A stretch of DNA of 64,000 nucleotides, taken from assembly GCF_009646095.1 (NCBI RefSeq), contig NZ_CP045725.1, forward strand, positions 1,054,001 to 1,118,000, read 5' to 3'. The stretch comes from Raineyella fluvialis (GTDB lineage: Bacteria > Actinomycetota > Actinomycetes > Propionibacteriales > Propionibacteriaceae). Below are positions 526 to 50,918 of this stretch, one piece after another. Under the pieces are notes generated by a model that saw only the letters and a program-made list of their open reading frames with translations, made no database searches and was not told the origin of the DNA. Each line of letters begins with the position of its first letter. Within the stretch, counting starts at the first letter, position 1. The translations under genes were made by a program, and so were the position numbers.

Positions 526-932
526 ATGGACATCACCATTCACTCCACGTTCCTCCCGCAGACCGATCCGGAGGCGTCCCTCGCGTTCTGGCGCGACACC
601 CTCGGCTTCGAGGTCCGCCTCGACGTCGGTTCCGGGGCCATGCGCTGGCTCACCATCGGCCCGGCCGGTCAGCCCGACACCAACATCGTCCTCGCGCCCC
701 CGCGGTCGACCCGACCTTGAGCGACGACGAGAAGCGCACCATCAACGAACTCATCGCCAAGGGCAGCTACGCCATGGTGCTGCTCAGCACCGACAACCTC
801 GACGACACGTTCGCCACGGTGGAGGCGAGTGGCGCCGAGATCGTCCAGGAGCCCACCCAGCAGCCGTGGGGCGTCCGCGACTTCGCGGTCCGCGACCCCG
901 CCGGCACCATGGTGCGGGTCAACCAGCGCTGA
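526..932 (+). CDS. VOC (glyoxalase/dioxygenase-fold) protein, frameshifted as sequenced
   Basis: Two half-ORFs together make one VOC protein of about 135 residues, a normal single-module length. The first half (MDITIHSTFLPQTDPEASLAFWRDTLGF) has the usual opening strand and helix. The second half (ELIAKGSYAMVLLSTDNL, then WGVRDFAVRDPAGTMVRV) has the typical closing strand with the RDPAG turn. The frame breaks in the C5 run at 697-701; one extra C restores LAPPAVDPTLSDDE. GGAGAC precedes the ATG. The substrate is unknown. It could be a real pseudogene, but the loss matches eleven other single-base losses in the window. Confidence 0.75.
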
Positions 933-1075
933 GCCGGCCGGCCCTGGCCTTCCTCGTTCGGGTCGCTTGGGCACACAGGGTCCACACATGATGGTCATAC
1001 CCATGACATGCGACCGATGCCAAGATGAACGCAGGAGGCGGGGCACGGGACCGACCAGGGCACGGGGAGGCGAGC

Positions 1076-1909
1076 ATGGCCATACGGCACATCCGCAGGC
1101 GTGGGCTCGCCGCCGGTGCGGCCGGTGTCGTCCTGGTCACGGCCGCGTACGGTCTGCCGGCGGCCGCCCACGGCGATCTGCTCGCGCGCTTCCTGCATCC
1201 CGGCGCCACGAGCGCAGCAGCCGCCCCTGCACTGACGACCCCGACCACCCCGGAGCCGACCACCCAGGAGCCGACCACCCCGGAGCCGACCACCCAGGAG
1301 CCGACCACCCAGGAGCCGACCACCCAGGAGCCGACCACCCAGGAGCCGACCTCGGCCTCGGCCTCGGCCTCGGACCTGCACGCGAGGATCGTCCAGGCCT
1401 CCTGCACCGCGGCGGTGCTCGACTCGCCCTCCGGTTCGTGGCTGGTCACCGCCGCGCACTGCGACGTGCCGGAGTCGATCGAGGCCGCGGGCCGTACCTG
1501 GACCGTCATCGACCACGTCACGACCGATGACGTCACCACCGCGGGCACGAGCACCGAGGACCTCGCCCTGCTGCGGGTGGACGGCGACATCGAAGCGGCA
1601 GTGGGCGGTGGATTCGTCGTCGGCACCGCGCCCGTTGACGGGTCGGCGGTGTCGATCTGGGGCTACCCCTCGGCGACCGGCGAGTTGATCGGCTGCGACC
1701 AGATCGCCGTGACCGTACGGTCCAACGCGATCGCCGTGGACGACTGCGACCTTCCCGACGGGACCAGCGGGTCGCCGTGGTACACCGCCGACGGCGTCCT
1801 GCACGGGGTGACCGGAGGGCCCGACGACGGCGGCACCAGCGACTGGGACACCGAATCGATCCGCTTCACCGACGACACCGTCGCGTGGATCAGGTCGGTG
1901 GTCGGCTGA
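1076..1909 (+). CDS. Secreted or membrane-anchored trypsin-like serine protease
   Basis: A 277-residue protein. The N-terminus MAIRHIRRRGLAAGAAGVVLVTAAYG is a positively charged, hydrophobic export signal or anchor. It is followed by a Thr/Pro/Glu linker (about residues 57-91) and a chymotrypsin-fold domain. The triad is visible: His in LVTAAHC, Asp in TSTEDLALLRV, Ser in DLPDGTSGSPW. The ATG at 1076 has GGAGG six bases upstream, so it is preferred over the in-frame ATG at 1025. It should act outside the cell. Its stop lies directly beside the convergent stop of the ric gene. Substrate unknown. Confidence 0.85.
   Translation: MAIRHIRRRGLAAGAAGVVLVTAAYGLPAAAHGDLLARFLHPGATSAAAAPALTTPTTPEPTTQEPTTPEPTTQEPTTQEPTTQEPTTQEPTSASASASDLHARIVQASCTAAVLDSPSGSWLVTAAHCDVPESIEAAGRTWTVIDHVTTDDVTTAGTSTEDLALLRVDGDIEAAVGGGFVVGTAPVDGSAVSIWGYPSATGELIGCDQIAVTVRSNAIAVDDCDLPDGTSGSPWYTADGVLHGVTGGPDDGGTSDWDTESIRFTDDTVAWIRSVVG
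1244..1348 (+). repeat. Seven tandem 15-bp units encoding (TT[P/Q]EP)7
   Basis: Seven in-frame units of ACCACCCAGGAGCCG or its ACCACCCCGGAGCCG variant encode TTPEP/TTQEP. They form the extended stalk between the export signal and the protease domain. Unit number could change by slippage without breaking the frame. An SASASAS tract follows. Confidence 0.9.
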
Positions 1910-2620
1910 TCAGCGCAGGCCACCCACCCGGTAGTGCAGCTCCAGCGCCCTCGGCAGCAGGATGTTGCCCTCCTTGTGGACGTGCAGGTGCAGGTCGGTC
2001 TCCAGCACATGCAGCCGGAGCATCATCGCCGCGTAGGAGGAGCATCCGTCATCCGGGGTCGTGTAGCCCCCGGTGATCCGGCGGAGCTGGCCGACGAGGT
2101 CACCGATGATGTCGTGTTCGTCGGTCAACCTCTGCACCGCGTCCACGAAGGACGTTCCACGCATCCGTACCGGCGTCTGCGTACGTTCCAGCTGGGCGAT
2201 CGCCGGGAAGACGATGCGCTCCTCCCGGGTGAGGTGGACGTCGAGATCCGCCACCAGTCGGTCGTACACGGCGAGGATCCGCTTCAGTTCCGGGTGGCGC
2301 TCCGCGTGCGCACTGACGACGGTGGCGACCAGCACCTGCAGCCGGGGCAGTTCCTCCCACAGATAGGCGTGGTGGGTGTCGACGATGTCGTGCGCCAGCC
2401 CGGCCAGATCGGCGCTCGTCACCCGAAGTGGCGCCGACTCGCCCGGCAGCTCCAGCGCCCGGGCGACGAGTTGGGCGTCCAGGCCCCGGGCGGTGGCGGC
2501 TTCGAAGAGACTGCGCTGTCCCCCACAGCAGTACTCCAGGCCGTACGCCTCGAGGACGGACGCGCGGCGCAGGTCCTCGGTGACGAGGTCGCTGAGCAGT
2601 GAAGAGGTGAGGACGGTCAT
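1910..2620 (-). CDS. ric: Iron-sulfur cluster repair di-iron protein (RIC/ScdA/YtfE family)
   Basis: A 236-residue protein matching the ScdA/YtfE pattern. The N-terminal DUF542 part carries the YCCGG motif (about residue 29). A hemerythrin-like four-helix domain follows, with spaced di-iron ligands: DIVDTHHAYLWEE, HAERHPEL, LDVHLTREERIVFP, TDEHDIIGD and LHLHVHKEGNILLP. Such proteins repair Fe-S clusters damaged by nitrosative or oxidative stress in the cytoplasm. The ATG at 2620 is preceded by GGGAG. The longer ORF upstream has no such support. A 17-bp tandem repeat lies just upstream. Nitrite reduction elsewhere in the window could be a source of NO, but that link is inference. Confidence 0.88.
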   Translation of the reverse strand: MTVLTSSLLSDLVTEDLRRASVLEAYGLEYCCGGQRSLFEAATARGLDAQLVARALELPGESAPLRVTSADLAGLAHDIVDTHHAYLWEELPRLQVLVATVVSAHAERHPELKRILAVYDRLVADLDVHLTREERIVFPAIAQLERTQTPVRMRGTSFVDAVQRLTDEHDIIGDLVGQLRRITGGYTTPDDGCSSYAAMMLRLHVLETDLHLHVHKEGNILLPRALELHYRVGGLR

Positions 2621-2632
2621 GGTCGCTCCCTT

Positions 2633-2666
2633 GCGATGCGGTCGGATCTGCGATGCGGTCGGATCT
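2633..2666. repeat. Two tandem copies of a 17-bp sequence upstream of ric
   Basis: GCGATGCGGTCGGATCT occurs twice head to tail, 13-46 bp upstream of the ric start codon, where a promoter or operator is expected. It could be a duplicated regulator site or a simple slippage product. Confidence 0.7.
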
Positions 2667-2898
2667 CGCCCGGCGAGCCGGGCGATGTGGCGACCGTACG
2701 CGCGGTGGCGCCAGTGCGCCTTGACGCGGATCAAGAACACCGGCACTCCAGGTCGGGGTTCCCGCGTTCGAGCCTCGCGAAAGTGCCCAGAGCTTTACAG
2801 TGAAAATGTTCCGCCCCTCGCCGGTCACGATGAGGGCAGCGCCCCGCTGCGCACGAGCCCGGCCCGTACGAGGCAGGGCACGGCCAGAGGAGGCTGTC

Positions 2899-3675
2899 AT
2901 GCGAACCATCGTGGTGACCGGTGCCGCATCAGGCATCGGCAGGACACTGGCGGGGATCCTCGCCGACCGAGGCGACAGGGTCATCGGCGTCGATCTCCAC
3001 GATGCCGACGTCACAGCGGATCTGACCACCCCGGAGGGGCGGACGGCGCTGGTCGAGCGGGTGCGGGAGGTGTCGGGCGGCTCGATCGACGCGATCGTGG
3101 CGAACGCCGGACTCGCCCTCGCCATCCCGAAGACCGTCTCGGTCAACTTCTTCGGGGCGATCGCGACGCTGGAAGGGTTACGGCCCCTGCTCGCCGGGTC
3201 GGCCGCGCCGCGTGCGTCAGTGACGTGCTCGATGGCGTCGCTCTATCCGCCGGACCAGGAGCTGCTCGACGACCTGCTGGCCGACGACGAGACCGCAGCC
3301 CTTGCCCGAGCCGAGGTCCTCGCCGCCGACCCGAAGCTCTCTGCCCTGATCTACGGCACGACGAAGCAGGCGCTGGCGAAGTGGGTCCGCCGCCGCGCCG
3401 CGACCGCGGACTGGGCGGGAGCCGGCATCCCGCTCAACGGCATCGCCCCCGGCATCGTGCTGACACCGATGACGAAGGACCTGACGTCCACCCAGGAGGC
3501 GGTCGATGCGCTCCTGCAGCAGGTCCCGATGCCACTGAACGGGATGATGGGGCCCGAGGTCCCCGCCCGGCTGCACGCCTGGCTGGTCTCCGAGGAGAAC
3601 AGCCACCTGTGCGGGCAGATCGTGTTCGTCGACGGAGGCTCGGACGTGGTGATCCGGGGCGATTCGACCTGGTGA
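2899..3675 (+). CDS. SDR-family NAD(P)-dependent oxidoreductase
   Basis: A 258-residue short-chain dehydrogenase. The nucleotide-binding TGAASGIG motif is at residues 7-14, NAG lies in AIVANAGLA, the catalytic Ser in CSMASLY, and Tyr/Lys in YGTTKQALAKW. The C-terminus has the usual GQIVFVDGG. A loop between the Ser strand and the Tyr helix (YPPDQELLDDLLADDETAAL) resembles the 3-alpha-hydroxysteroid dehydrogenase subgroup, but the substrate is not determined. The ATG at 2899 has AGAGGAGG upstream. It faces a convergent aldo/keto reductase. Confidence 0.85.
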   Translation: MRTIVVTGAASGIGRTLAGILADRGDRVIGVDLHDADVTADLTTPEGRTALVERVREVSGGSIDAIVANAGLALAIPKTVSVNFFGAIATLEGLRPLLAGSAAPRASVTCSMASLYPPDQELLDDLLADDETAALARAEVLAADPKLSALIYGTTKQALAKWVRRRAATADWAGAGIPLNGIAPGIVLTPMTKDLTSTQEAVDALLQQVPMPLNGMMGPEVPARLHAWLVSEENSHLCGQIVFVDGGSDVVIRGDSTW

Positions 3676-3698
3676 ACGTCAGGCCAACGAGCTGACGG

Positions 3699-4706
3699 TC
3701 AGGACGGGCGACCCGCCGGGGCCCGAGTCAGCGCGGGGTCCCGGACGACGACGTCACCGAGCACCTCGTCGATGCGGGTCATCAGTTCCGCCGGGATGGT
3801 GACGCCGGAGGCCGCGACGTTGTGGGCGATCTGCTCGGGTCGCGAGGCGCCGACCAGGGCGGCGGCGACGTTGCCGTTCTGCAGCACCCAGGCGATCGCC
3901 AACTGGGCCATCGACAGCTCCAGCTCGTCGGCGATCGGGCGCAGGTCCTGCACGCGGGCGACCAGGTCCTGGTTGTCGAGGAAGCGCTTGATGAAGGTGG
4001 CGCCGCCCTTCTCATCGGTGGCGCGGCTGCCTTCGGGGGCCGGGGCGCCAGGCTTGTACTTGCCGCTCAGTACGCCCTGGGCCATCGGGGACCAGACGAT
4101 CTGGGAGATGCCCAACTCCTCGGAGGCGGGGATGACCTCGGGCTCGATCACCCGCCACAGCATCGAGTACTGCGGCTGGGAGCTGACGATCCGGAAGCCG
4201 AGCTGGGTGGCCAGTTCCTGGCCGGCGCGCAGCTGCTCGGCGGTCCACTCGGAAACGCCGATGTAGAGCGCCTTGCCCTGGCGGACGATGTCGCCGAAGG
4301 CCTGCATGGTCTCTTCGAGCGGCGTCTCCACGTCGTAGCGGTGCGCCTGGTAGAGGTCGACATAGTCGGTGCCGAGCCGCTTGAGTGAGCCGTTGATCGA
4401 CTCCATGATGTGCTTGCGCGACAGGCCGCTGTCGTTGTGGCCCTTGGGACCGGTCGGCCAGTAGACCTTGGTGAAGATCTCCAGGGATTCGCGCCGCTCA
4501 CCGTTCAGGGCTTCACCGAGGACGGTTTCGGCGGCGGTGTTCGCGTACGTGTCAGCGGTGTCGAAGGTGGTGATGCCGGCGTCCAGCGCGGCGTGCACGC
4601 AGGCGATCGCCGTCTCGCTCTGCACCTGCGAGCCGTGGGTGATCCAGTTGCCGTACGTGATCTCGGAGATCTTGAGACCGGAATTGCCGAGGTAACGGAA
4701 CTTCAT
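3699..4706 (-). CDS. Aldo/keto reductase (potassium-channel beta-like group)
   Basis: A 335-residue NADPH-dependent aldo/keto reductase with the (beta/alpha)8 signature. The catalytic Asp and Tyr are in TFDTADTYAN, Lys in IFTKVYW and His in LYQAHRYD. The opening MKFRYLGNSGLKISEITYGNW and the ending with QNGNVAAALVGASRPEQI are typical of the AKR6/YghZ-like group. It reduces aldehydes or ketones in the cytosol; the exact substrate is unknown. It is a stand-alone gene, convergent with the SDR. Confidence 0.88.
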   Translation of the reverse strand: MKFRYLGNSGLKISEITYGNWITHGSQVQSETAIACVHAALDAGITTFDTADTYANTAAETVLGEALNGERRESLEIFTKVYWPTGPKGHNDSGLSRKHIMESINGSLKRLGTDYVDLYQAHRYDVETPLEETMQAFGDIVRQGKALYIGVSEWTAEQLRAGQELATQLGFRIVSSQPQYSMLWRVIEPEVIPASEELGISQIVWSPMAQGVLSGKYKPGAPAPEGSRATDEKGGATFIKRFLDNQDLVARVQDLRPIADELELSMAQLAIAWVLQNGNVAAALVGASRPEQIAHNVAASGVTIPAELMTRIDEVLGDVVVRDPALTRAPAGRPS

Positions 4707-4835
4707 GCTGCGACTCTAGCCCGCTGCCCGCGCCGTGCGGGTTCCCTTCCGATGCCCTTCCGGTGCGCTTCCGGCGCCGTGTCAGTGGTCTGCCGGAGAC
4801 TCTTCTTATCGAACGTACGTGTCTTTGGGGGAATC

Positions 4836-6218
4836 ATGTGGGACTGGTCGGAGGCTGTCGATGCGGATCGGTTGCCGCGTCCGGAGGCGGAGGATCTGGG
4901 GATCGGGATCCAGGGTGCGGCGACGGCTCAGGCCCGAGGTGACGCCAGACTCCTGGAGCTGGTCGGACAGTTCGACGCGGGCGCGGGGTGGGCGTGGTTC
5001 GAGGGGATCACCTCGTGCGCCCATTGGCTGGGGTGGGCCTGCTCGATGAGTCCGGGCACGGCTCGGGAGCACGTGCGCGTCGCGCGAGCCCTGCGCTCCA
5101 TGCCGAGGGTGGCGGAGCTCTTCGCCGACGGCGCCCTGACCTACTCGAAGGTTCGCGAAGTGACCCGGCTCGTCGGGCGGGTCGAGGAGGGCGGTCTGTG
5201 TGAGTTGGCCCGGGCCCAGACCGCCTCGCAGTTGGCCCGCACGGTCCGCTCGTACCGCGCGCACAGCGGGACGCATCTGGGTCAGGTCGAACGACGCCGG
5301 CTGTCGTGGCAGGAGACCGATGACGGCATGGTCACCCTCAGCGTTCGCATGTTGCCTGAGGAGGCCGCGACGGTACGCGGGGCCGTCGAGGCGGCGACTG
5401 ATCGTCACCTCGACCAGCCGGACGATCCGCTCGCCTCGGATGGCGACCCGGCCGACCGGCCGGTGATCGACCCCGTCGCGGCACTGTGCGACGTGGCCCG
5501 CGGCTACCTCGACGGGGCCCCGACCACCAGCGTCGACGACCCGAACCTGGTGGTGGTCCATGTCGGCCTCGAGACGCTCGCCGGAGTGGCGCTTGCGCCC
5601 AGCGAGGACGTTCCCGCGGGAACGCCGCCGGACCCCACAGCCGGGTCGGGATCAGCGGATCTGCGGGCTTCGCAGGCCTGGATCGAACGTGGCGGACCGA
5701 TCGAGGCGGCGACCGCGGCCCGGCACGCCTGTGACGGCGACGTCGTCGGGATGATCATCGATGCCGAGGGTGACGTGTTGGCCATGGGCAGGACCCGACG
5801 GTTCGCCACGCCTGCCCAACGACGCGCCCTGCGGGTCAGGGACGGGGGCTGTCAGTTCCCCGGCTGTCAGCAGCGACGGCGCTTGAAGGCGCACCACATC
5901 GCCTTCTGGGCCAATGGCGGATCCACCGATCTGGACAACCTGTTGCTCCTATGCCAAGCCCACCACACGTACGTGCACGAGGGCGGCGTGGAGGTGACCG
6001 GACGTGCCGGGGCCTGGGTCTTCACCCTGCCTGACGGACGGCCCATCAGCACCGGCGACGCTCCGGATCCCGACCTAGTGGAAAGCATCCTGCTGGACGC
6101 AGCCGCAACGGCTGCCGAAGAGCCGGACCGGATCTTCCCGCCCCTGGCCGGGGAAGGCTTCAGCCTCTATGAATGCGTCCAGGTCCTCTTCGACATCGAG
6201 CTGCCCAGCGCCGCCTGA
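4836..6218 (+). CDS. DUF222/HNH endonuclease-domain protein (13E12 type)
   Basis: A 460-residue protein with an N-terminal DUF222 region (residues about 20-330, including FEGITSCAHWLGW and ADGALTYSKVREVTRL) and a C-terminal HNH nuclease fold. The HNH is seen as RDGGCQFPGC, LKAHHIAFWANGG, TDLDNLLLLCQAHHTYVHEGG. The family is present in many copies in actinobacterial genomes and is often considered mobile or selfish; its role is not settled. The ATG at 4836 has GGGGGA upstream. It lies alone between two leftward gene groups. Confidence 0.88.
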   Translation: MWDWSEAVDADRLPRPEAEDLGIGIQGAATAQARGDARLLELVGQFDAGAGWAWFEGITSCAHWLGWACSMSPGTAREHVRVARALRSMPRVAELFADGALTYSKVREVTRLVGRVEEGGLCELARAQTASQLARTVRSYRAHSGTHLGQVERRRLSWQETDDGMVTLSVRMLPEEAATVRGAVEAATDRHLDQPDDPLASDGDPADRPVIDPVAALCDVARGYLDGAPTTSVDDPNLVVVHVGLETLAGVALAPSEDVPAGTPPDPTAGSGSADLRASQAWIERGGPIEAATAARHACDGDVVGMIIDAEGDVLAMGRTRRFATPAQRRALRVRDGGCQFPGCQQRRRLKAHHIAFWANGGSTDLDNLLLLCQAHHTYVHEGGVEVTGRAGAWVFTLPDGRPISTGDAPDPDLVESILLDAAATAAEEPDRIFPPLAGEGFSLYECVQVLFDIELPSAA

Positions 6219-6276: not shown

Positions 6277-8459
6277 TCAGCCCGCGATGCCCAGGGCCAA
6301 CGGCAGGACGGCCGGCGCCCCCGCTCGGCGCAGCATCCGTCCCGCGACCGCCATCGTCCAGCGGGAGTCGACCAGGTCATCGACCAACAGGACGGGGCCG
6401 TCGAGTCCGGCCAGGCGGTCGGCGAGCTCGGCGGGCATCTCCCAGCGGTCCCAGACCGAGGCGAGCCGGAAGGCGCTGTTACCGGTCGTCGTCGGCCCTA
6501 CGCCGGCGCGCACCGGAAGCAGGCCCAGGTCGGTCAGCCGCCCGACGCAGGCGAGGCCGGAGACGAGCGAGGCGACCAGTTGCGGACGGCCGACGGATCC
6601 GACCCCGATGACCGCGACCGGGCGTACGGCCCAGTCCCAGCCACTCAGTACCCGAACGCAGGCCTGGGCCAGGGAGGGCGGCAGAGGGCGGTCGACCGGC
6701 CGGCCCTCGCTGTCCGCGGCGAACAGTTCCCGCAGGGTCCGGCCATGCCCCAGATCTGTCAGTCGGGCGACGGCACGGCCCTCCTCGACGGTCTCGTCGG
6801 TCGGGATCCGCCCCTTGAGCCCGATGCCGAGCCGGTCCATGCCGGAGGGCCACTGGTGCCGGGCCTCGATCGGCACGCCGACGTGGTCGAGTTGGGCGCC
6901 GGCCAGCGCGAGGGCCCCCTCAGGGACGTCCTCCGCGTACCAGGCCTGCTCCCCCACCGCAGCCAGGCAGACATCACACCGCCCGCAGGGATGGGCCTGC
7001 GGATCGTCGAGCTGGGCTGTGAGGAACTCCATCCGGCAGGTGGCGCCCCGCTCGTACTCGAGCATGGCCTGCTGTTCGGCGGCCCTGGCGGCGGCGATCC
7101 GCCCATAGCGGTCGGCGTCGTACGTCCACGGGGTCCCGGTGGCGATCCAGCCCCGGTCGACCTTCTCGACGGCGCCGTCGACGGCGAGCACCTTCAGCAG
7201 CAGCTCCAACGGCGTACGGCGGATGTCGACGCGGGCCTCGAGCGCCGCGACCGACAGCGGCCGACCGGCCTCCGCCAGCGCGGTGAGGACGGCGGAGGCC
7301 TTGGCCTGGCTGGGCATCGAGGCGGACGCGAAGTACTGCCAGATGTCGCGGTCCTCCGGCCCGGGCAGCATCAGGACGTCGGCGCTCGCCACACCGCGGC
7401 CGGCGCGGCCGACCTGTTGGTAGTACGCGACAGGTGACGAGGGCGCCCCGAGGTGGAGGACGAAGCCCAGATCCGGCTTGTCGAAGCCCATTCCGAGCGC
7501 ACTGGTCGCCACCAGTGCCTTCACCGCGTTGGTCTTCAGGGCCTGTTCGGCGGCCTCGCGGTCGGCGGGGTCGGTCCGGCCCGTGTAGGCGAGCACGCGG
7601 TGGCCGTGGGCGGCGAGCAGGCGCGCCGTGTCCTCCGCGGCTGAGACCGTGAGCGCGTAGATGATGCCGCTCCCGGGCAGGTCACCGAGGTGGGCGAGCA
7701 GCCAGCCGAGGCGGTGACGGGAGGTCGGCAGCGTTAGGACACCGAGGCGGAGGGAGTCCCGCGCGAGTGGGCCACGGACGACGAACACCTCGTCGGACGC
7801 CGCTGTGGCCGCGGCCGCGGCCGCGGTGGCGGTCGCGGGAGCATCCTCGAGACGTACGCCCAGTTGTTCCGCGACGTCGGTGATCACCCGACTGTTCGCG
7901 GTGGCGGTGGTGGCCAGGATCGGCACGCCCTCGGGGAGTCGGGCGATCAGGTCGCGGATCCGCCGGTAGTCGGGCCGGAAGTCGTGGCCCCAGTCGGAGA
8001 TGCAGTGCGCCTCGTCGACGACCAGCAGTCCCATGTCGGCGACCAGGGCGGGGAGCACCGTCTCGCGGAACCGCGGATTGGTGAGCCGCTCCGGCGAGAT
8101 CAACAGCAGGTCGATGTCGCCGGCGTGCACCGCGGCGATCGTCTCGTCCCACTCCGTGGCGTTCGCCGAGTTGATCGCCGCCGCACGGATGCCGGCCCGC
8201 CCCGCCGCGGCGAGCTGGTCCCGCATCAGCGCCAGCAGCGGCGAGACGATGACCGTCGCCCCGGCCCCTGGCGACGGCGGAGCAGGCAGGACACGAAATA
8301 GACGGCCGACTTCCCCCAGCCGGTGCGCTGGACCACCAGGGCCCGGCGCCGGTCGGCGACCAACGCCTCGATCGCCTCGAACTGCCCGTCGCGGAAATCC
8401 GCCCCCGGCACTCCGGTCAGGTCGTGCAGGATCGTCCGAGCCTCGTCACGCAGTGACAT
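6277..8459 (-). CDS. recQ: RecQ-like ATP-dependent DNA helicase, frameshifted as sequenced
   Basis: The N-terminal part (residues 1 to about 65) has FRDGQFEAIEAL and a Walker A-like VVQRTGWGKSAVYF. After a frame break come the other helicase motifs: LLVVDEAHCISDWGHDFRPDY (DEAH), ILATTATANSRV, VATSALGMGFDKPD and YYQQVGRAGRG. A Zn-binding CRMEFL...CGRCDVC element follows. The last 150 residues resemble a phosphoribosyltransferase fold (GPVLLVDDLVDSRWTM), common in actinobacterial RecQ. The break lies at the C4 run 8259-8262; one base restores PGATVIVSPLLALMRD and a 727-residue protein. It starts 9 bp after the M3 peptidase gene. Confidence 0.82.
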
Positions 8460-16185: not shown

Positions 16186-17207
16186 ATGCGTGCAGTGAAG
16201 TTGTACGGAAGCCATGACGTGCGCGTCGAGGACGTGCCGATGCCCACGATCCGCGAGGATGGCGATGCGATCATCAAGCTCGCTGCCGCCTGCGTGTGCG
16301 GCTCGGACCTGTGGGCCTACCGAGGCATCGACCCCATCACGGACCCGATCACGGTCGGCCACGAGTACTGCGGCACGGTCGTCGAGGTCGGCCCGAGCGT
16401 ACGCAACGTGCAGGTGGGCGACTTCGTCGTCGGCTCGTTCTTCGCCTCCGACGGCACCTGCGAGATCTGCCGGTCGGGCTATCCCAGCGGCTGCGTCGAC
16501 CGGCGCGGTATGGGCGGTGAGAACTGCCAGGCCGAGTACGTCCGCGTCCCGCTGGCCGACGGCACCCTGGTCGCCACCCCTGGCCAGCCCGAGCCCGATC
16601 TCATCCCCAGCCTGCTGGCGGCATCCGACGTCCTGGGCACCGGCTGGTTCGCCGCCAAGGCAGCCGAGGTCGGCCCGGGCAAGACCGTCGCCGTGATCGG
16701 GGACGGAGCCGTCGGCCTCCTCGCGGTCATGGCCGCTCAGCAGCTCGGCGCCGAGCGGATCATCGCGATGAGCCGCCACGCCGACCGGCAGAAGCTGGCC
16801 CTCGAGTTCGGCGCCACCGACATCGTCACTGAGCGTGGGGACGAGGGCGTGGCCAGGATCAAGGAGATGACCGGCGGGCTCGGCGTGCACAGCGCGCTCG
16901 AGGCGGTCGGCACCCAGGAGTCGATGATGCAGGCGATCCGGTCCACCCGGCGCGGCGGTCATGTCGGCTACGTCGGCGTCTCCCACGACGTCACTCTGCC
17001 GGGACTGGAGCTGTTCTTCAGCCACGTCCACCTGCACGGGGCCCGGCGCCCGTCCGCGCTTACCTGCCGGACCTGATCGATCGGATCATGACGCGCCGGA
17101 TCGACCCCGGCCGTGTCTTCGACCTCGAGCTGCCCTTCGACCGAGCGGCCGAAGCGTACGCCGCAATGGACGAACGTCGCGCCATCAAGGCGCTCCTGCG
17201 GTTCTGA
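16186..17207 (+). CDS. Zinc-dependent alcohol dehydrogenase, frameshifted as sequenced
   Basis: A medium-chain dehydrogenase of about 340 residues once one base is restored. The catalytic zinc ligands are in CVCGSDLWAYRG and GHEYCGTVVEVG. The structural-zinc cysteines are in ASDGTCEICRSGYPSGC. The NAD(P)-binding motif is VAVIGDGAVGLLAV. The frame breaks at the G4 run 17038-17041; one extra G continues through PVRAYLPDLIDRIMTRRIDPG to ALLRF and a TGA at 17205-17207. It follows the MFS pump gene and its stop overlaps the ATG of the lipoprotein gene. Confidence 0.82.
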
Positions 17208-33400: not shown

Positions 33401-35403
33401 TGACCAAGCTCAACGACGACACCGCCGGCGGCCCCATCTCCACCACCGTCACCTACACGGACTCCTACTACGGCTCGCACTTCCAAAGCGTCGACGTGTT
33501 GGCTGGTGGTGTGGCCCGGGTCTCTGGGGCCAGCATCCGATACGCGAGTTACAACGGGCTGAGCGTCGCCAATGGCGGATCCGCCGACGTGACCGGCTCC
33601 CAGTTCATCAGCAACGGAACCGGGATCTCGTTCGATCCGGGTAGCAGCGGGTCGGTGACGGGGGACCAGTTCACCGGAGGTACCACCGGCCTGGTCGTGA
33701 CAGATGGCGCCAACGTCACCATCGACGCTGACAGCTTCACCGCAATGCAGACCGGCATCTCCTTGTCGAACCCGGCCACGATCGTGTCGAACTGCACCTT
33801 CGACACCATCAACGCCGACACGATCAAGGTGAGCACGTCCTCGCCGTTCGATCCGGCCAAGATCACCCAGGGCAACACCGCCACCAACTCCCCCATCAAC
33901 GGCGTCCACCTCAAAGACCCCGTCTTCGCCGACGGAGCCACACTCTTCGGCCGCCCCGGGTGGGGCCTCGTCCTCTCCAACGCATCCGGGTCCACGGTCA
34001 ACGTACCCGCCGGTTCTTCCGTCACGGTCCCCGCGGGGGCGGTCATCAAGTTCCAATTCCTGGACCACTGGCCCTTTGGTGCGGATCGGGGCGTCCTCGC
34101 TGTCGCGGGTGTTCTCAACGTCAATGGGACGTTGACCAAGCTCAACGACGACACCGCCGGCGGCCCCATCTCCACCACCGTCACCTACACGGACTCCTAC
34201 TACGGCTCGCACTTCCAAAGCGTCGACGTGTTGGCTGGTGGTGTGGCCCGGGTCTCTGCAGCCAGCATCCGATACGCGAACAACGGACTAAACGTGGCCA
34301 GCGGCGGATCCGCCGAGGTAACCGGCTCCCAGTTCATCAACAACGGAACCGCGGTCACTGTGGCCGGCGTCTTGGAAGCTACTGGCGTGGACGTGCGCAA
34401 CACCGGGACCGGAATCAAGGCAGTCTCAGCCTCACGAACGCTATTTCGTGGCTCGTTCACGCAAGTGAATACAGGAATCTCAGCTGATGATTCTTCTTAT
34501 GTCGATGCTCGCGACGTGAATTGGGGGGCAGCTTCTGGTCCTGCTCCAACTGGGGCTGGCGCCGCAGCGATCGGACCAGTCCTCTATTACCCTTGGAGCG
34601 GCTATACTGCTCCCGTAGTAGCACCCATCGCAGCAACGACTAACGTTCCGAATGTATCGACATGCTCAAACATTCTCGCTTTCGGTCTACGTGGATCGGG
34701 CGAGTTGCCTCAATGGAGCGGTCAGGTGGATAATGGACTAGAAGCGGCATATTTCAGCACATGGGAGGAGGGAATGGGGAAACCTGGCCAGACTGCCTAC
34801 GACGCCTACAAATCAGTAGCGCAGGCCAAGGATCCCTCGCTCACAATCGAACAAATCGGAGTCAGGTATGAGGCTAAGCCGGTCGCAGTCTTGCCGTGGG
34901 AGTTCCAGCACAGCATTGATGATGGAGTGGCAAAGACGCTGCAGTACCTACGAGATGCTCACGACAGGTGTGGCTACGCTGGCCAGCGCTACGTGCTTAT
35001 CGGGTACTCACAAGGTGCTGCCGTGATCCATAAAGCACTGACCCAGCTCACGCCGGAAGAGCTCGACCTGATCCAAGGGGTGATTCTAGTTGGCGACGCA
35101 GGACGTCAGCCCGACGCGCGTGAGCATCTCTTCGAAGGGCTGGACGCTTCCGGGAATCTGAAGGTGGCCGGTTGGTGGGTCGCTGGCGCGAACGGCATGC
35201 TTGCACTGCAAACTCAGGGCATCCCAGACAGTCTGACCTCCAAGACCTACTCGTTGTGCCACGCAGGAGACCCGATCTGCACGATGACACCCACCAACGG
35301 AATGGGTGTGTGGCTGCAAATGGCGCTCCAATGGCCCAGCCACACCGGTTACTCGGAGCCCGAACTCGCAGCCTTGACAGAGGAGATGTTTCGCAGCTAC
35401 TAG
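30499..35403 (+). CDS. Giant secreted protein: IPT/TIG repeats, parallel beta-helix and C-terminal cutinase-like esterase
   Basis: 1634 residues from the ATG at 30499, whose product opens with a clear signal peptide (MERIFKAVLTSLLAVALFLPG, cleavage likely after ASA). In-frame starts at 30322 (GTG) and 30346 (ATG) would add 59 or 51 residues. Order: seven IPT/TIG immunoglobulin-like repeats of 87-88 residues; a right-handed beta-helix region with two identical 244-residue units and part of a third; then a cutinase/alpha-beta hydrolase domain with GYSQGA (nucleophile Ser), CHAGDPIC (Asp) and a His in SHTGY. It should act outside the cell as a binding protein carrying an esterase. Base composition falls after about 34400. 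No sortase or anchor motif is seen. Confidence 0.8.
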   Translation: MERIFKAVLTSLLAVALFLPGSVGTAITSASAAPGATIPVVGSLSPSTGSTSGGVLVTITGTGLTGATSVMFGKTAGTQISVISDTSLSVLSPAASAGTVDVRVTTPGGTSQKSKADSFTFVPAPVPTVGSLSPSTGSTSGGVLVTITGTGLTGATSVMFGKTAGTQISVISDTSLSVLSPAASAGTVDVRVTTPGGTSQKSKADSFTFVPAPVPTVGSLSPSTGSTSGGVLVTITGTGLTGATAVMFGTVAATNVVVVSDTQLTATSPAMKTAGGIDITVTTPGGTTATTPTDRFTFADVPTLTQVSPAAGPTAGGTTVTITGTGLTGATAVMFGTVAATNVVVVSDTQLTATSPAMKTAGGIDITVTTPGGTTATTPTDRFTFADVPTLTQVSPAAGPTAGGTTVTITGTGLTGATAVMFGTVAATNVVVVSDTQLTATSPAMKTAGGIDITVTTPGGTTATTPTDRFTFADVPTLTQVSPAAGPTAGGTTVTITGTGLTGATAVMFGTVAATNVVVVSDTQLTATSPAMKTAGGIDITVTTPGGTTATTPTDRFTFADVPTLTQVSPAAGPTAGGTTVTITGTGLTGATAVMFGTVAATNVVVVSDTQLTATSPAMKTAGGIDITVTTPGGTTATTPTDRFTFESACGSTYSQFVDVYGAITSNTDWGPECANVYVLHGIVGVAPGVQLTLEPGSLIEANSDGSLQVGGTLTISGNGASPVVVTSTGDASGGQPIPNVAYPPPASTTWGGVNVLAGGVARVSGASIRYASYNGLSVANGGSADVTGSQFISNGTGISFDPGSSGSVTGDQFTGGTTGLVVTDGANVTIDADSFTAMQTGISLSNPATIVSNCTFDTINADTIKVSTSSPFDPAKITQGNTATNSPINGVHLKDPVFADGATLFGRPGWGLVLSNASGSTVNVPAGSSVTVPAGAVIKFQFLDHWPFGADRGVLAVAGVLNVNGTLTKLNDDTAGGPISTTVTYTDSYYGSHFQSVDVLAGGVARVSGASIRYASYNGLSVANGGSADVTGSQFISNGTGISFDPGSSGSVTGDQFTGGTTGLVVTDGANVTIDADSFTAMQTGISLSNPATIVSNCTFDTINADTIKVSTSSPFDPAKITQGNTATNSPINGVHLKDPVFADGATLFGRPGWGLVLSNASGSTVNVPAGSSVTVPAGAVIKFQFLDHWPFGADRGVLAVAGVLNVNGTLTKLNDDTAGGPISTTVTYTDSYYGSHFQSVDVLAGGVARVSAASIRYANNGLNVASGGSAEVTGSQFINNGTAVTVAGVLEATGVDVRNTGTGIKAVSASRTLFRGSFTQVNTGISADDSSYVDARDVNWGAASGPAPTGAGAAAIGPVLYYPWSGYTAPVVAPIAATTNVPNVSTCSNILAFGLRGSGELPQWSGQVDNGLEAAYFSTWEEGMGKPGQTAYDAYKSVAQAKDPSLTIEQIGVRYEAKPVAVLPWEFQHSIDDGVAKTLQYLRDAHDRCGYAGQRYVLIGYSQGAAVIHKALTQLTPEELDLIQGVILVGDAGRQPDAREHLFEGLDASGNLKVAGWWVAGANGMLALQTQGIPDSLTSKTYSLCHAGDPICTMTPTNGMGVWLQMALQWPSHTGYSEPELAALTEEMFRSY
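30619..32440 (+). repeat. Seven tandem IPT/TIG repeat units (264/261 bp)
   Basis: Units start at 30619, 30883 and 31147 (264-bp period, type A), then 31396, 31657, 31918 and 32179 (261-bp period, type B). The third unit begins as type A and switches to type B near 31205, which looks like recombination between repeat types. Copies within a type are nearly identical at the DNA level. Confidence 0.92.
32764..34227 (+). repeat. Two 732-bp direct repeats in the beta-helix region
   Basis: 32764-33495 and 33496-34227 appear identical throughout by eye. A third copy begins at 34228 and diverges from about 34258. Each unit encodes 244 residues from VLAGGVARVSGASIRYA to YGSHFQSVD. Identity this high suggests very recent duplication or gene conversion. 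Confidence 0.9.
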
Positions 35404-37397: not shown

Positions 37398-38959
37398 ATG
37401 GTACGAAGGATTCAGGCGAAGTCAGTGCTTCGTCTCCGGGCCGAGGGCCTGTCAGGGCGAGCGATCGCCGCGTCCCAGCAGATGTCGCGTCACAGTGTCG
37501 CGGCGGTGATCGACGCCGCGCAGGAGGCCGGGGTCGGCTGGGACGACGTCGCCGACCTGCCCGAGGCCGAGGTGTATGGCCTGTTGTTCCCGGGCCGGGG
37601 TGAGCATGTCAGTGTGTTCAGCGAGCCGGACTGGGCCGGGGTCCACCGGGAGTTGGCCCGGGTCGGGGTGACGCTGCGTCTGCTGCACGCCGAGTACGTC
37701 GACGCCACGACCGGTGCTGGCCAGGTGGCGATGGGCTATGACCGGTTCTGCAAGTCCTACGGCCACTATCTGCTGGTGACCGGCGCCTCTTCGCGGGTTG
37801 GTCACAAGGCCGGCAGGACCGTCGAGGTCGACTGGTCGGGCCCACCATGAAGCTCACCGACCCGATGGCCGGGACGACGCAGAAGGTGTACTTGTTCGTG
37901 GGGTGTCTGCCGTTCAGCCGGTATGCGTTCGTGGAGCCGGCCCAGGACATGCGCCAGGACACCTGGCTGCGGGCGCACGTGGCGATGTTCGAGTTCTTCG
38001 GCGGGTCGGTGCCCCGGATCGTGTCGGACAACCTGAAGACCGGCGTGATCACCCATCCCCGGGAGGGTGAGATCGTGCTGAACGACGCCTACCGCGAACT
38101 CGCTGCCCACTACTCGGCGGCCGTGCTGCCGGGGCGGGTCCGCAAGCCGAAGGACAAGCCGAGCGTGGAGAACACGGTCGGCAACATCGCCACCGCCGTG
38201 ATCGCCGCGCTGCGCGCCGAGACGTTCACCAGCCTGGCGCAGTTGCGGGCGGCGATCCGGGAACGACTGGCCGACTACAACGCCGCACCCTTCCAGAAGC
38301 GCGCGGGCTCACGGGCCTCGGTGTTCACCAGCGAGGAGGCGCCGCTGCTGCGGCCTCTGCCGGCCGTGGCGTTCGAGATCTCCGCCTGGGTCCGGGGCCG
38401 GCGGGTCGGGCGCGATGGGCACGTGGTCTGGGCGCGCAACCGGTACTCGGTGCCGTTCGTCCACATCGGGACCCATGTCGACCTGCGCGTCACCGACACC
38501 ACGCTGGAGGTCTGGCGCCACGACGAACGCCTGGCCTCCCACCCGCTGCTAGCGGCCACGGCGGTCAACCAGTACCGCACCCGGCCCGCCGACCTGCCCG
38601 ACGGCAAGCCCTGGCGCGAATGGGACCCCGACCGGGTCAGGGCCTGGGCGGGCCGGATCGGCCCCGACACCACCACCGTCGTGGATCGGATCTTCGCGTC
38701 CGTGACGGTCGACGAGCAGGGCCTGGACCCGGCCCTGGCCGTCCTGCGCCTGTCACGGCGCTACTCCGCGGCCCGGCTGGAAGCCGCCAGCCGGATCGCG
38801 CTCACGGCGGGCATCCGCTCGCCCCGCTACGCCCACCTGCAGCCGATTCTGGCGACCGGGCAGGACAAGACCCGCCCCGACCACACCCCACCACCGCGCG
38901 AGAGCGCCGACGCCGGGTTCGTCCGCGGGGCCGACTACTACGCCGGAGGGGCCCGATGA
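37398..38959 (+). CDS. istA: IS21-family transposase IstA, frameshifted as sequenced
   Basis: About 520 residues after repair. An N-terminal helix-turn-helix (VLRLRAEGLSGRAIAASQQMSRHSV) precedes the DDE core: first Asp in TVEVDWSG, second in RIVSDNLKTGV, Glu in KPSVENTVGN. A C-terminal Mu-type beta-barrel region (RNRYSVPFVHIGTHVDLRV) follows. The frame breaks in the C3 run 37841-37843; one C gives DWSGPTMKLTDP. AGAAGGAG precedes the ATG. It cuts and joins DNA with help from IstB. Confidence 0.85.
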
Positions 38960-44757: not shown

Positions 44758-46449
44758 TCATCTCGCGGCCACCCAGGAACGCCAGCCTCCCCAGGCGGTG
44801 ATGTCCTCGGCGTCGGCCACGGCCGCCGGTTCGCAGAGGAAGCCCGGGACCACGCGGCCGTCCTCCAGCTCGACCGAGCCGATCGTCATCGGCCGGGGCA
44901 AGCCGGCGACGAGGTGGCCCAGGCCCGCCACCGGCAGCCGCCACAGCTCTCCGACGACGGACGCACCCCCGGCGTCCCCCCGGACCCGGACCAGCCCCGG
45001 CTTGGCCGGGGTGGTCGCCAACGCGTACAGGCGATAGATCGGCCCCGTCCGCACCGGCCCGACCAGGACACCACCGCGAGCGGTGAGCTCATGGTTGAGC
45101 GGCATCCCGGACAGGTGCGCGCCGACCACGACGAGCTCGACGCCATCGCCGTCCCGAGAGATCTCCGCGACGATCCCGGCCAGCAGGTCGTCCGCCCCAG
45201 CCGGAGCCGTGAGCATGGCTCCGAAGGGCAGACCCGAGACGGTTCCGGCGGGGAAGGCGATCGACGCCATGTCGAGCAGGTTCGCGTAGTTGGTGAACCT
45301 GCCCATTGCCGCGTTGATCGCCACCGGATCCGCCCTCACGGCCTCGATCGTCGGGTGGCGGGTGGTGGTCGGCGTCAGCAGCGCGTCGACGTCGGCGAAC
45401 GTCCGCTCCGCCGCCACCGCCAGGAACTCGAGCCGCGCCAGGTCGTCGAACAGGTCCGCGGCCGTCGGCTCGCCGGAGGCCAGCACGATCGCCGCGACCG
45501 TGGGATCGATCTCCTCCCCCACCAGGTCACGGTGCCGGGCGATGAACGGCCCCACCGCGGCGAACCGTTCCGCCACGAACGCCCCGTCGTACAGCAGGCC
45601 GGCGGCCTCCAGGAAGGGGTCCAGGTCGACCGGTACGACCTCGGCGCCGGCGGCCCGGCACCGCGTCACCAGGGCGTCGTACGCCTCGCGCCAGCCGGGC
45701 TCCAGCTCCCCCAATTGCTCGGGGAACGGCACCCCCAAGCGGACCTGGCGGGCCGGTCGCGCGGCAGGTCTCAGGGCTCGGTCCCGGATCCTGCGGGCCG
45801 CGATCTCCTGGTCATCACCGGTGATGGCCCGGACGGCCGTCCGGGCGGCGTCCAGTGATCGGGCGAAGACCGTGACGCAGTCCAGACTGCGGCAGGCCGG
45901 GACGACACCGGCGGTGGAGACCAGCCCCCGCGTGGGCTTGATGCCGACGATGCCGTTCAACGCCGCTGGCACCCGCCCCGAGCCGGCCGTGTCGGTGCCC
46001 AGGGCGAGGTCGACGAGACCGAGTGCGACGGCGACTGCCGAGCCGGAGCTCGACCCGCCGGAGACCCGCGATGGGTCCCAGGCGTTGCGCACCGCGCCGT
46101 ACGGGCTGCGGGTGCCGACCAGCCCGGTGGCGAACTGGTCGAGGTTGGTCTTCCCGATCAGCACCGCGCCCGCCGCCCGGAGCCGCGCGACGGCCTCCGC
46201 GTCCTCCGCCGGATCGTACGCGTACGCGGGGCAGCCGGCCGTCGTCGGCAGGCCCGCCACGTCGATGTTGTCCTTCACCGCCACGACCGACCCGGCGAGC
46301 GGCAACTCCTCCCCGGCGGCCACCCGCGCGTCGACGGCTGCCGCCTGGGCGAGCAGCGTGTCGGGATCGGCGAGGGAGATCCAGATCTCCGGCCGCCCCG
46401 ACGAGGCGATGGCGTCCAGAGCGGCGGCAGCCCGCTCCACGGCCGTCAT
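44758..46449 (-). CDS. atzF: Allophanate hydrolase
   Basis: A 563-residue amidase-signature enzyme with a C-terminal allophanate hydrolase domain. The Ser-cisSer-Lys triad is visible: Lys in VAVKDNIDVAG, Ser residues in RVSGGSSSGSAVAVA and TDTAGSGRVPAALNGIVGIKPTRG. The C-terminal domain (ELVVVGAHLSGMPLNHELTARGG; GPIYRLYAL) is the region that acts on the N-carboxyurea product. It converts allophanate to ammonia and CO2. Its ATG overlaps the carboxylase stop (ATGA). Confidence 0.92.
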   Translation of the reverse strand: MTAVERAAAALDAIASSGRPEIWISLADPDTLLAQAAAVDARVAAGEELPLAGSVVAVKDNIDVAGLPTTAGCPAYAYDPAEDAEAVARLRAAGAVLIGKTNLDQFATGLVGTRSPYGAVRNAWDPSRVSGGSSSGSAVAVALGLVDLALGTDTAGSGRVPAALNGIVGIKPTRGLVSTAGVVPACRSLDCVTVFARSLDAARTAVRAITGDDQEIAARRIRDRALRPAARPARQVRLGVPFPEQLGELEPGWREAYDALVTRCRAAGAEVVPVDLDPFLEAAGLLYDGAFVAERFAAVGPFIARHRDLVGEEIDPTVAAIVLASGEPTAADLFDDLARLEFLAVAAERTFADVDALLTPTTTRHPTIEAVRADPVAINAAMGRFTNYANLLDMASIAFPAGTVSGLPFGAMLTAPAGADDLLAGIVAEISRDGDGVELVVVGAHLSGMPLNHELTARGGVLVGPVRTGPIYRLYALATTPAKPGLVRVRGDAGGASVVGELWRLPVAGLGHLVAGLPRPMTIGSVELEDGRVVPGFLCEPAAVADAEDITAWGGWRSWVAAR

Positions 46450-49400
46450 CGCCCGGCCCCTGCCGCAACCGTCAGCCCTGCGGACCGGCCGGCCGGGTCC
46501 GCTGGGGCGTCGGGCGCCTCCGACGAGGCTGGCGCGTCCGAGCCGCCCACAGGACCATGCGGCCCCACGACCGCCAGCACCTGGCCGGCCGACACCTGGT
46601 TGCCCGCCGTGACGTGGAGCGCCGTGACGATCCCGTCGCCTGGGGCGGTGACGCGGGTCTCCATCTTCATCGCCTCCAGGGACACGAGCCGGTCACCCTT
46701 GCGGACACGATCGCCGACAGCCACGTCGACGTTCAGCACGTTGGAGACGAACGGCGCCTCGACCCCGACGTGCCCCGCGGGCACCTCGATCGTCGCGACG
46801 GCTTCCACGTGGGGGTGCTGGAGCTGGACGTCGAATTCCCCCGAAGCGTGCCAGCGCTCCTTCTCCTCGGCGAACGCCCGCTCCTGGGTGCTGCGGAAAC
46901 GGTCGATCGACGCGGAGTTCTCCGCAAGGAAGCGGGTGTAGTCCCCGTAGTCGAAGACGCCGTCGGTCACCTCGGCATGGGAGGCCCGACCGGCCTCGAC
47001 GTCGGCGCGCATCGAGAGGAGTTCGTCGGCCTCGACCGGGTACCACTGGATCCGGTCGAAGAACCGCAGTGACCACGGGTGCTCGGCGAACATGCCGGCA
47101 CGACGGAAGCGGTTCCACACCTGGGTGGTCCGGCCGACGAACTGATAGCCGCCGGGCCCTTCCATCCCGTAGATGCAGAGGTAGGCACCGCCGATGCCGA
47201 CCGAGTTCTCCGCGGTCCAGGTCCTGGCCGGGTTGTACTTGGTGGTGACGAGACGGTGGCGGGGATCCAGCGGCGTGGCGACCGGGGCGCCCAGGTAGAC
47301 ATCGCCCAGCCCGAGGACCAGGTAGCTGGCGTCGAACACGATCCGCTTGACGTCCTCGACGCTGTCCAGACCGTTGATCCGGCGGATGAACTCGATGTTC
47401 CACGGCGTCCAGGGTGCGTCGCTGCGGACGCTGTGCATGTAGCGCTCGATCGCCACCCGGGTCGCCGGGTCGTCCCAGGACAGCGGTAGCCGGACGACGC
47501 GGGACGGCACGGTGAGCTCGCGGGTGTCCGGGAGGGCATCGTCCAACTCCCGGAGCAGCCCCATCAGCGTGCTGGCCCGTCGGCGGGTGGGATCGGTGTG
47601 CACCTGGAGGGAGCGGATGCCCGGGGTGGCGTCGATGACGCCGGCCGGGGCCTCCGCGCGGAGGGCGTCGAGCAGGGCCTGGACCCGCATCCGCAGGCCG
47701 ATGTCGAGGACCTGCTCGCCGTACTCGACGATGATGTTGTCGTCGCCGTCACGGCGGAAGGTGAGGGCCGGTCGGTCCTCGCGTGCGTCGATCCGGGCCA
47801 GCACCCCGTCGTCGCCGTCGCCGACTCCGGTCAGCCGGGCGGCCGAGGCCCTGGCCCGTAGACCGGCGGCCTCCTCGTCCCGCACCGGGACGAAGCGGAC
47901 GGTGTCACCCGGACGCAACTGCCCCAGCTTCCACCGCTCGCCGGAGGCCACGACGGCGGGGCAGACGAACCCGCCGAGGCTCGGCCCGTCCGGGCCCAGG
48001 ATGATCGGGGTGTCGCCGGTGAAGTCCAGAGCGCCCACCGAGTAGGGGGTGTCGTGGATGTTGCTGGGGTGCAGGCCGGCCTCCCCGCCGTCCTCCCGGG
48101 CCCAGGTGGGACGGGGACCGAGCAGACGGACGCCGGTGCGATCGGAGTTGAAGTGCACCTCATAGTGGGCGGCGTACAGGTCGTCGATGTCGGCACGGGT
48201 GAAGAACTCCGGGGCCGCATGCGGTCCCTCGGTGACGCCGATCCGCCAGTCCCGGGTGAGCCGGGGTCGCCGCGCCAGTGGCACCGGGCCTGCGACCGGG
48301 GCGAGGCCCTCCGGTTCGGCGGCGCGTAACACGTCGCCGGCCTGCAGCGCTCGCCCGGCATGCCCGCCGAAGCGGCCCAGGGTGAACGTCGAGGCGCTGC
48401 CGAGATAGCGCGGCACGTCGAGGCCGCCACGGACGGCCACGTACGTCCGCTGCCCCGGGCCCACGATCGACCCGATCTCGACGGCTTCACCGGCGGGCAC
48501 CTCGAACGGCGTCCACCACGGGATCGACTCCCCGGCCATGGTCGCCTGAGCCGGCGCGCCCCCAGACAGATCCAGGTGGGATGCGAGAAGCGCAGGGTGG
48601 GGCCGGTGGCCGTGCACTCCAGCCCGGGGGCACCCTCGGGGTTGCCGAGCGCGCGGTTGGCCTCCCGCAGGGAGACATCGTCCATCGGGCCACTCGGCGG
48701 CACACCGATGTCCCAGTGGCCGAGGCGGCCGGGCAGATCCTGCACCGTCGTCATCAGGCCGGGCTGCTCCACGTCGATCCGCGGCTCCGGGTCGCGCACC
48801 CCGTCCAGGGTGTGCGTGTGGTGGGTGACACCGGCGACGTCATCGCGGCGGAGGACCGTACGCAACAGCCCGAGATTGGTCTGCACGCCGTCGATCCGCA
48901 CCTCGTCGAGCGCCGCGGCCAGGCCGGCCAGGGCAGCCGCGCGATCCGCGCCGTGCCGGATGACCTTGGCGACCATCGGGTCGTAGTGGGTGCTGACCTC
49001 GCTGCCGGTCTCGATCCACGCGTCGACGCGGACGTCCGAGGCGGGCCATTCGACCCGGGTGACCAGGCCGGCGCTGGGCCGGCCGCCGTGGTTCGGGTCC
49101 TCGGCGTAGATCCGCGCCTCGACGGCATGGCCGGTCGGTCGCAGGTCGGCCGTCATGAGGTCCGTCACGCCGGCGGGACCCTGGCCGGCCAACCGCAGCA
49201 TCTGCTCGACGAGGTCGACCCCGAAGACCTCCTCGGTGACGGGGTGCTCCACCTGGAGCCGCGTGTTGACCTCGAGGAAGGACGCCTCCTCCCGGAGCGG
49301 GTCGTAGACGAACTCGACGGTGCCGGCGCTGCGGTAGGCCACCGAGGCGGCGAGGCGACGGGCGGAATCGTGCAGTGCCGCCCGGACGTGGTCGGGCAGG

Positions 49401-50176
49401 CCGGGGGCCGGCGCCTCCTCGACGACCTTCTGGTTGCGACGCTGCAGGGAGCAGTCCCGGTCGCCGAGGATGACCACCCCGCCGGCGCCGTCACCGAAGA
49501 CCTGCACCTCGACGTGCCGGGCGGGGCTGACCAGTCGTTCGAGGAAGATTCCGGCGCTGCCGAAGCTGGCGGCGGCAAGGCGGCCGACACGGTCGTACGC
49601 GTCGGCGACCTCGGCAGGTCCGGAGCAGGTGAGCATGCCGATACCACCTCCGCCTCCGGTGGCCTTGACCATCACCGGGTAGCCGATGCGCTCGGCTGCG
49701 TCGACGGCCTCCTGGGCCGAACCGAGCAGGCCGGTGCCGGGCATCAGGCAGACTCCGGCCGCCTCGGCCAGTGACCGGGCGGTGTGTTTGAGGCCGAACT
49801 GCTGCAACTGCTCCGGAGTCGGGCCAACGAAGGCGATCCCGGCCGCCTCGACACGCCGGGCGAAGTCGGCGTTCTCCGACAGGAAGCCGTAGCCCGGGTG
49901 GATGGCACCGGCACCGGTCGACCTGGCCGCCGCGAGCACCGCGTCGACGTCGAGGTAGGAGGCCCGCGCACTGGCCGGGCCGAGCAGCACCGCCTCGTCG
50001 GCCTCGCGGACGTGCGGGGCCGACGAGTCGGCCTCGGAGTAGACCGCGACGGTCCGCAGGCCCAGGTCGCGAGCCGTCCGGATGATCCGCCGGGCGATCT
50101 CACCGCGATTGGCGACGAGGACGGTGTCGAAGGCCCAATCCGGGCCGGTGATCGCGGGCGTACGCGTGGTGCTCAT
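46446..50176 (-). CDS. Biotin-dependent guanidine (or urea) carboxylase, frameshifted as sequenced
   Basis: About 1243 residues after repair. Domain order: biotin carboxylase (VLVANRGEIARRIIRTARDLG; VKATGGGGGIGM; EFVYDPLREEASFLEVNTRLQVEHPVTEE), AHS2/KipA-like domain ([44 protein letters not shown]), AHS1/KipI-like domain, then the biotinyl domain with the AMKME motif (LVSLEAMKMETRV). The break is at the C5 run 48559-48563; one base gives [11 protein letters not shown]. The two DUF1989 genes directly upstream point to guanidine as substrate. Overlaps both neighbours by four bases. Confidence 0.85.
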
Positions 50177-50918
50177 CGGTGCTCCTCGGGGTCCGTGACG
50201 ATCATCCGCAGTGGGGTCGGATTGAACTCGTTGCAGGGGTTGTTCATCTGCGGGCAGTTGGAGACCAGCACCAGGAGGTCCTTTTCCGCCCGGAAGGCGA
50301 CCCGGCGGCCCGGCCCGGAGATGCCGTCGACGATGCCGAGGGCGCCGTCCGCCTCGACCGGCACGTTCATGAACCAGTTGAGGTTCGAGACCATGTCCCG
50401 GGCGCCCAGGTCGTAGCGCGACCCCTCGGCGAGGAAGTTGTCACGGCAGGCGTGCTCGGTCAGCGTGTGGTGCCCGTAACGCAGGGTGTTCGACTCCTTG
50501 CTACAGGCACCGCCGATCGTGTCCTGGCGGTCCACCTCGTTGGCCACGACGGTGGCCAAGGGCTCACCGAGGGTGGAGCGGAGCACTGTCCCGGTCCGTA
50601 CGTAGGCATTGCCCTGCCAGGCGAGGGTGTCCGGGACGCTGTAGCGCTCGTCGGTGTCGTCGGCGTTGAACAGCAGGCAGTCCCCGATTGGTTGCCGCCG
50701 ACGTCCACGATGGTCAGGACCTGACCGGCGGCCAGGCGCACGGACCACGGCGCCCGGGCGGGGACGACCTCGTCCCGTACGATCGCGCCGTCGGTCAGGG
50801 GGCCGGCGAGGTCGAGGACCGTCCCTTCGGCGTACCGCGAGGCGTCCAGCACCTCACCGAGCGGGAGAGGGCAGGTGGGCGTACGGCCCATGGCGTCCAC
50901 GATGGTGGCAGTGGTCAT
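50173..50918 (-). CDS. DUF1989 protein (UAAP2), probable carboxyguanidine deiminase subunit, frameshifted as sequenced
   Basis: About 248 residues after repair. Conserved DUF1989 segments are DCLLFNADDTDERYSVPDTLAWQGNAYV, GGACSKESNTLRYGHHT, RDNFLAEGSRYDLGARDMVSNLNWFMNVP and SNCPQMNNPCNEFNPTPLRM; the Cys residues are likely metal ligands. The break is in the C4 run 50682-50685; one base joins GGNQ to GDCLLFN. Paired DUF1989 proteins beside a carboxylase and allophanate hydrolase have been shown in other bacteria to form carboxyguanidine deiminase. It begins one base after the UAAP1 stop. Confidence 0.82.

Follow-up and report, generated by a model that had tools for sequence, protein, structure and literature searches.

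One-base losses at G/C runs in the Raineyella fluvialis genome assembly are almost certainly uncorrected consensus errors

The window (the whole stretch of DNA analysed here, 64,000 nucleotides) covers C1:1054001–1118000 of G000, the one-contig genome of Raineyella fluvialis (3,649,865 bases, three rRNA operons). Its G+C content is 69.7%, that of the genome overall being about 70%. The stretch carries genes of the VOC/glyoxalase and RecQ families, an alcohol dehydrogenase gene, the nitrate genes nasA, nirB and nnaR, an IS21-type element, and a urea-carboxylase-type gene with UAAP neighbours. A reading made from the sequence alone had placed twelve one-base losses at runs of C or G in these and neighbouring genes, and had attributed them to under-called homopolymers in an unpolished assembly. 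All twelve runs are present at the reported positions; ten are 4–5 bases long and two are 3 bases long. An Rfam search of the window returned no family at gathering score, and a protein from the window had no match when viral contigs were searched with it.

Three genomes of the same genus (G001, G002 and G003) served for comparison, of which G003 is the closest. Much of the window is collinear with G003, at a DNA identity of 79–87% depending on the piece, and no DNA match was obtained for window positions of about 11.2–17.9 kb and 27.7–41.7 kb in the 100 kb of G003 sequence set against the window. Reading frames were compared protein-to-DNA between 544 kb of G000 and 780 kb of G003, a comparison restricted to genes with at least 80 bits and 60% identity, which took in 237 G003 genes and 85,886 aligned residues. 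This sample amounts to 16% of G000, and the figures given below for spread are figures for the sample only. Messy frame events (17 of 49) were excluded from the clean counts; a few of the clean events sit in G003 frames that lack a family match. Fragments of broken genes were each compared separately with homologs, unmended. A second approach, the frame-switch scan, used a codon-usage model that allows frame switches and was trained on G003 genes, homology not being used at the site; switches within 30 bases of the relevant stop were removed before counting. When a break lies near a stop and a start codon is close by, the scan takes the break for two overlapping genes, which probably explains its failure at nirB. 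Since it also misses the breaks in nnaR, the VOC gene, the alcohol dehydrogenase gene, the membrane-protein gene and istA, its rates are lower bounds.

Eight of the twelve sites are covered by G003: those in the VOC gene, recQ, nasA (two sites), nirB, nnaR, the carboxylase gene and the UAAP2 gene. At each of them, a G003 protein encoded in a single frame aligns in consecutive segments with two different frames of the window, the shift being of loss type; the window thus behaves at all eight as if one base were missing. Seven are also clean at the DNA level, the exception being nasA near 19913; the alignment with G003 shows one-base gaps on the window side in the VOC gene, recQ, nasA (20078), nirB, nnaR, the carboxylase gene and the UAAP2 gene, with no compensating gap nearby. 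The protein-to-DNA comparison with G003 listed no further frame breaks in the window. Relatives carrying the same frameshifts would have spoken against assembly error, and none was found: of the eight testable sites, none is broken in G003.

The first of these sites is the run at 697–701 (forward strand) in the VOC/glyoxalase-family gene. The 135-residue G003 ortholog, which matches PF00903, aligns in two frames as parts of 59 and 77 residues (95% and 87% identity), and between 600 and 750 frame 0 takes over from frame 1 in codon usage. For the RecQ-family helicase gene (run at 8259–8262, reverse strand), residues 1–67 and 65–715 of the ortholog fall in two frames, the window ORF begins only at position 66 of profile TIGR01389, and the frame-switch scan gives a signal at 8265. 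The assimilatory nitrate reductase gene nasA (reverse strand) is broken twice. Its first break (run at 20073–20077) is a single clean gap separating ortholog residues 20–533 from 533–595, and the scan places it at 20083. The second (run at 19913–19915) separates residues 533–595 from 583–713, with a scan signal at 19919; its exact position is uncertain because the local DNA alignment is messy (net −1).

Profile searches show four of the split genes independently of G003. In nirB (run at 25526–25529, forward strand), positions 1–574 and 567–794 of the 794 in TIGR02374 are divided between two ORFs; the gap is clean, the G003 ortholog (903 residues) lies in one frame and the gene is open in G002 too (875 residues). 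The gene nnaR, coding for a uroporphyrinogen-III synthase with a response-regulator-like C-terminus (run at 27078–27082, forward strand), has positions 6–187 and 186–375 of the 381 in NF005568 on two ORFs, again with a clean gap and a single-frame ortholog. The urea-carboxylase-type gene (run at 48559–48563, reverse strand) is split within CT_A_B, positions 1–50 and 51–261 of 261 lying on different ORFs, and its ortholog is a single-frame protein of 1281 residues scoring above the cut-off for TIGR02712. The UAAP2 gene (run at 50682–50685, reverse strand) is split within DUF1989 (positions 1–41 and 30–168 of 168); its single-frame ortholog is above the cut-off for TIGR03424. These last two genes belong to a group of the urea-carboxylase-type gene and UAAP neighbours at 46446–50918, and no riboswitch family reached the Rfam gathering score in the window.

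The remaining four sites lie outside the G003 cover, and two of them are borne out by homologs from elsewhere. The alcohol dehydrogenase gene (run at 17038–17041, forward strand) matches a 345-residue homolog (L208) with residues 2–294 in frame 1 and 291–344 in frame 3 (72% and 76% identity), a shift of −1 with an overlap at 17040–17052; the comparison uses one of five homolog frames, the other four being antisense or out of phase. The istA gene of the IS21-type element (run at 37841–37843, forward strand) was compared with a 519-residue plasmid IstA, a single protein accession present on two plasmids. Residues 1–149 match 37398–37844 in frame 3 and residues 148–519 match 37838–38956 in frame 2; this +2 shift is of loss type modulo 3. 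The last two, both on the forward strand, are probable breaks of loss type and the weakest of the twelve: codon usage and expected gene ends speak for them. At the end of the DUF4913 gene (run at 29500–29504) a plasmid homolog stops about three codons past its aligned end, so a gene end near 29518 is expected; the −1 frame has a stop there, and the domain-bearing frame stays open to 29958. The scan switches at 29472, and codon usage around the site is ambiguous. In the gene called a membrane protein by the sequence-only reading (run at 29915–29919), frame 0 replaces frame 1 near 29915 as the frame with the best codon usage, and the frame-switch scan did not pick this break up.

Three of these sites (DUF4913, the membrane-protein gene and istA) fall in the stretch at about 27.7–41.7 kb. 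It also holds, between nnaR and the DUF4913 gene and immediately adjoining both, a gene for a TraG/TraD-like coupling protein of 390 residues (27725–28897) whose match to PF02534 begins at profile position 89, and which is probably left over, truncated, from a conjugative element. Further along lies an ORF of 1693 residues (30322–35403) that encodes several TIG domains together with a right-handed beta helix and is cutinase-like at its end. Some real decay is probably present in this stretch, because its TraG-like gene has no N-terminal part. Run errors might thus occur throughout while one or two of istA, the DUF4913 gene and the membrane-protein gene are truly lesioned, a version compatible with the main explanation. 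The absence of the stretch from G003 and the local run at istA of only 3 C are in its favour, yet the breaks in the mobile stretch share their loss-type direction with all the rest, and we regard such a mixture as unlikely.

Within the window, the frame-switch scan reported six switches, all of loss type and all at or near six of the twelve sites; the least exact were those at 29472 (28 bases off) and 48548 (11 bases off). The same kind of event recurs across the genome. In the 237 compared genes there were 49 frame events, 45 of loss type and four of gain type. Those clean at the DNA level number 32 and comprise 30 one-base losses, one one-base gain and one two-base gain. A G/C run of at least 4 lies within 7 bases of 27 of the 30 clean losses, against 10.2% expected for random positions in the same genes, and a run of 5 lies within 7 bases of 15 of them, against 2.0% at random positions; the remaining three are at a run of 3. 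Clean cases occur about once per 8–9 kb of gene aligned to the relative. In this respect the window does not stand out from its genome: it has 7 clean losses in 33.8 kb of aligned gene and the rest has 23 (0.103 per kb), the rate in the window being about twice that elsewhere (P = 0.063).

The scan gave a similar picture over the larger regions. Loss and gain counts were 69 and 10 in 544 kb of G000, 9 and 2 in 780 kb of G003, and 3 and 3 in 140 kb of G001, corresponding to 12.7 and 1.8, 1.2 and 0.3, and 2.1 and 2.1 per 100 kb, respectively. A loss-type switch was present in 25 of 30 bins of G000 (bins of about 15–20 kb) versus 7 of 37 in G003. Fourteen of the 69 losses cluster in 7.5 kb at the start of the contig (G000:C1 2055–9567). 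This cluster would be accounted for by low coverage at the end of a contig, but the stretch is perhaps foreign; the region around it (L200, G000:C1:1–20000) shows weak matches to GmrSD restriction enzymes. The scan found no loss-type switch in the last 35 kb of G000, a part in which the comparison with G003 gives one loss, at 3633909. Runs of 5–6 are not depleted in G000, so the shortening can concern no more than a minority of runs. Of runs with 7 or more bases, 364 kb of G000 contained 1, 620 kb of G003 contained 10 and 140 kb of G001 contained 2.

A lineage could, in principle, have acquired hundreds of real one-base slippage deletions in weakly selected genes. Many bacteria can lose recQ, uvrC, recX, rimO, nasA and nirB, all of which are among the broken genes, and the six long essential loci that were tested (rpoB, a dnaE and genes matching the tRNA synthetase family PF00133) are all open in G000, as true decay would have it. 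Decay would, however, be expected to spare essential genes, and two single-copy ones are broken. The sole S12-family locus in G000 (rpsL) covers profile positions 24–109, whereas positions 2–109 are covered in G001, G002 and G003; the sole EF-Tu match above cut-off (tuf), in a search listing matches up to E 1e-20, covers positions 52–394, whereas those of the three relatives cover 2–394. Each gene has one clean loss, and the parts on either side are 98% and 100% identical to G003 in rpsL and 100% and 95% identical in tuf. A cell whose sole rpsL and sole tuf are frameshifted should not live, so these two breaks are very unlikely to exist in the DNA of the cell, and the remaining breaks look just like them. 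Further clean losses lie in orthologs of recR, the glutamate synthase large subunit gene, hisC, cobM, a UvrA-family gene, the transhydrogenase beta gene, whiA, uvrC, recX and rimO. A second dnaE-type polymerase gene (L177, around G000:C1:2556406–2559260) is split in G000 and has longer matching pieces in the three relatives; it is probably another run error.

Nor does the rate of breakage drop with conservation: with the gene classes in order of increasing conservation, losses per 10 kb are 0.85, 1.16, 0.93 and 1.48. Decay should also leave a mixture of lesions with nonsense codons among them, but losses outnumber gains 30 to 2 among the clean events and convincing in-frame stops are nearly absent. 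Within the aligned parts (76,717 residues) there are 37 in-frame stops, and for 36 of them the codon model fails to score both flanks as coding. Most of the 37 may be wrong choices of start or frame. The one other, with coding calls on both flanks, falls near the gene start, at residue 19 in a match of 298 residues. As G003 and G001 are also free of the pattern, true gene decay is a very improbable account of it.

The short runs might instead be real and be tolerated, if RNA polymerase or the ribosome slipped at G/C runs and the proteins were still made. In AT-rich insect symbionts, homopolymer slippage does rescue frameshifts. In the present case the shift is absent from G003 at all eight covered sites and from nirB of G002, so the shift site is not conserved in the orthologs as it would be for programmed frameshifting, and inspection by eye showed no shift signal beyond the run itself. 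One of the three G000 copies of 23S rRNA is affected as well (L184, G000:C1:1007964–1011046): one C run in it is 5 bases long, against 6 in the eight other copies, two from G000 and six from G003 and G001. Reading frame is irrelevant in rRNA, and this short run therefore counts against such slippage. The 23S copies of G000 show other variants too among the differences listed, and none was listed among the three 16S copies. Slippage is accordingly even harder to credit than decay, and that a free-living, high-GC actinobacterium should have hundreds of real one-base gaps in G/C runs, including rpsL and tuf, all rescued in this way is extremely improbable.

Under-called homopolymers in an inadequately polished assembly, as originally proposed, predict losses in excess of gains, a location at runs, spread over the genome regardless of gene importance, and absence from relatives, and each of these was observed. 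Since mistakes of this one kind turn up genome-wide, and even in indispensable single-copy genes, the twelve breaks are almost certainly errors of sequencing. The consensus would report one base too few at a minority of G/C runs, shifting the reading frame, with the errors scattered across the portions of the 3.65-Mb contig that were sampled; an error-prone read type combined with inadequate polishing is the presumed cause. Given this spread over the contig, the broken genes are probably intact in the organism, and for the nitrate and urea/guanidine carboxylase genes it is reasonable to infer as much.

The pattern is thus a matter of data quality and a warning on the record, and not new biology. 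Extrapolation from the clean cases gives about 370 breaks genome-wide as a lower bound, and anyone relying on this assembly for gene content or pathways would be misled about many genes. In particular, it provides no ground for concluding that nitrate assimilation, RecQ or the route through the urea/guanidine carboxylase has been lost. The record needs re-polishing before use.

Comparable errors have been described in other assemblies. In the long-read assemblies of one study, the Kastor paper, deletions were commonest after four to five identical bases (PMC12007338). As in G000, the one-base homopolymer deletions described there, mostly after runs of that length, break genes and are revealed by a relative; the example given favoured A/T runs, whereas the 30 clean losses of G000, a genome of about 70% G+C, are at G/C runs (PMC12007338). 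The Homopolish paper reports that systematic homopolymer indels, when left uncorrected, shift frames and raise pseudogene counts, and quotes an excess of 151–5298 pseudogenes for one pipeline and R9.4 data (PMC8011154). The reads in that account are nanopore reads and the G000 assembly possibly derives from another read type, but the errors are alike: those that escape polishing there are mainly homopolymer indels that shift reading frames (PMC8011154).
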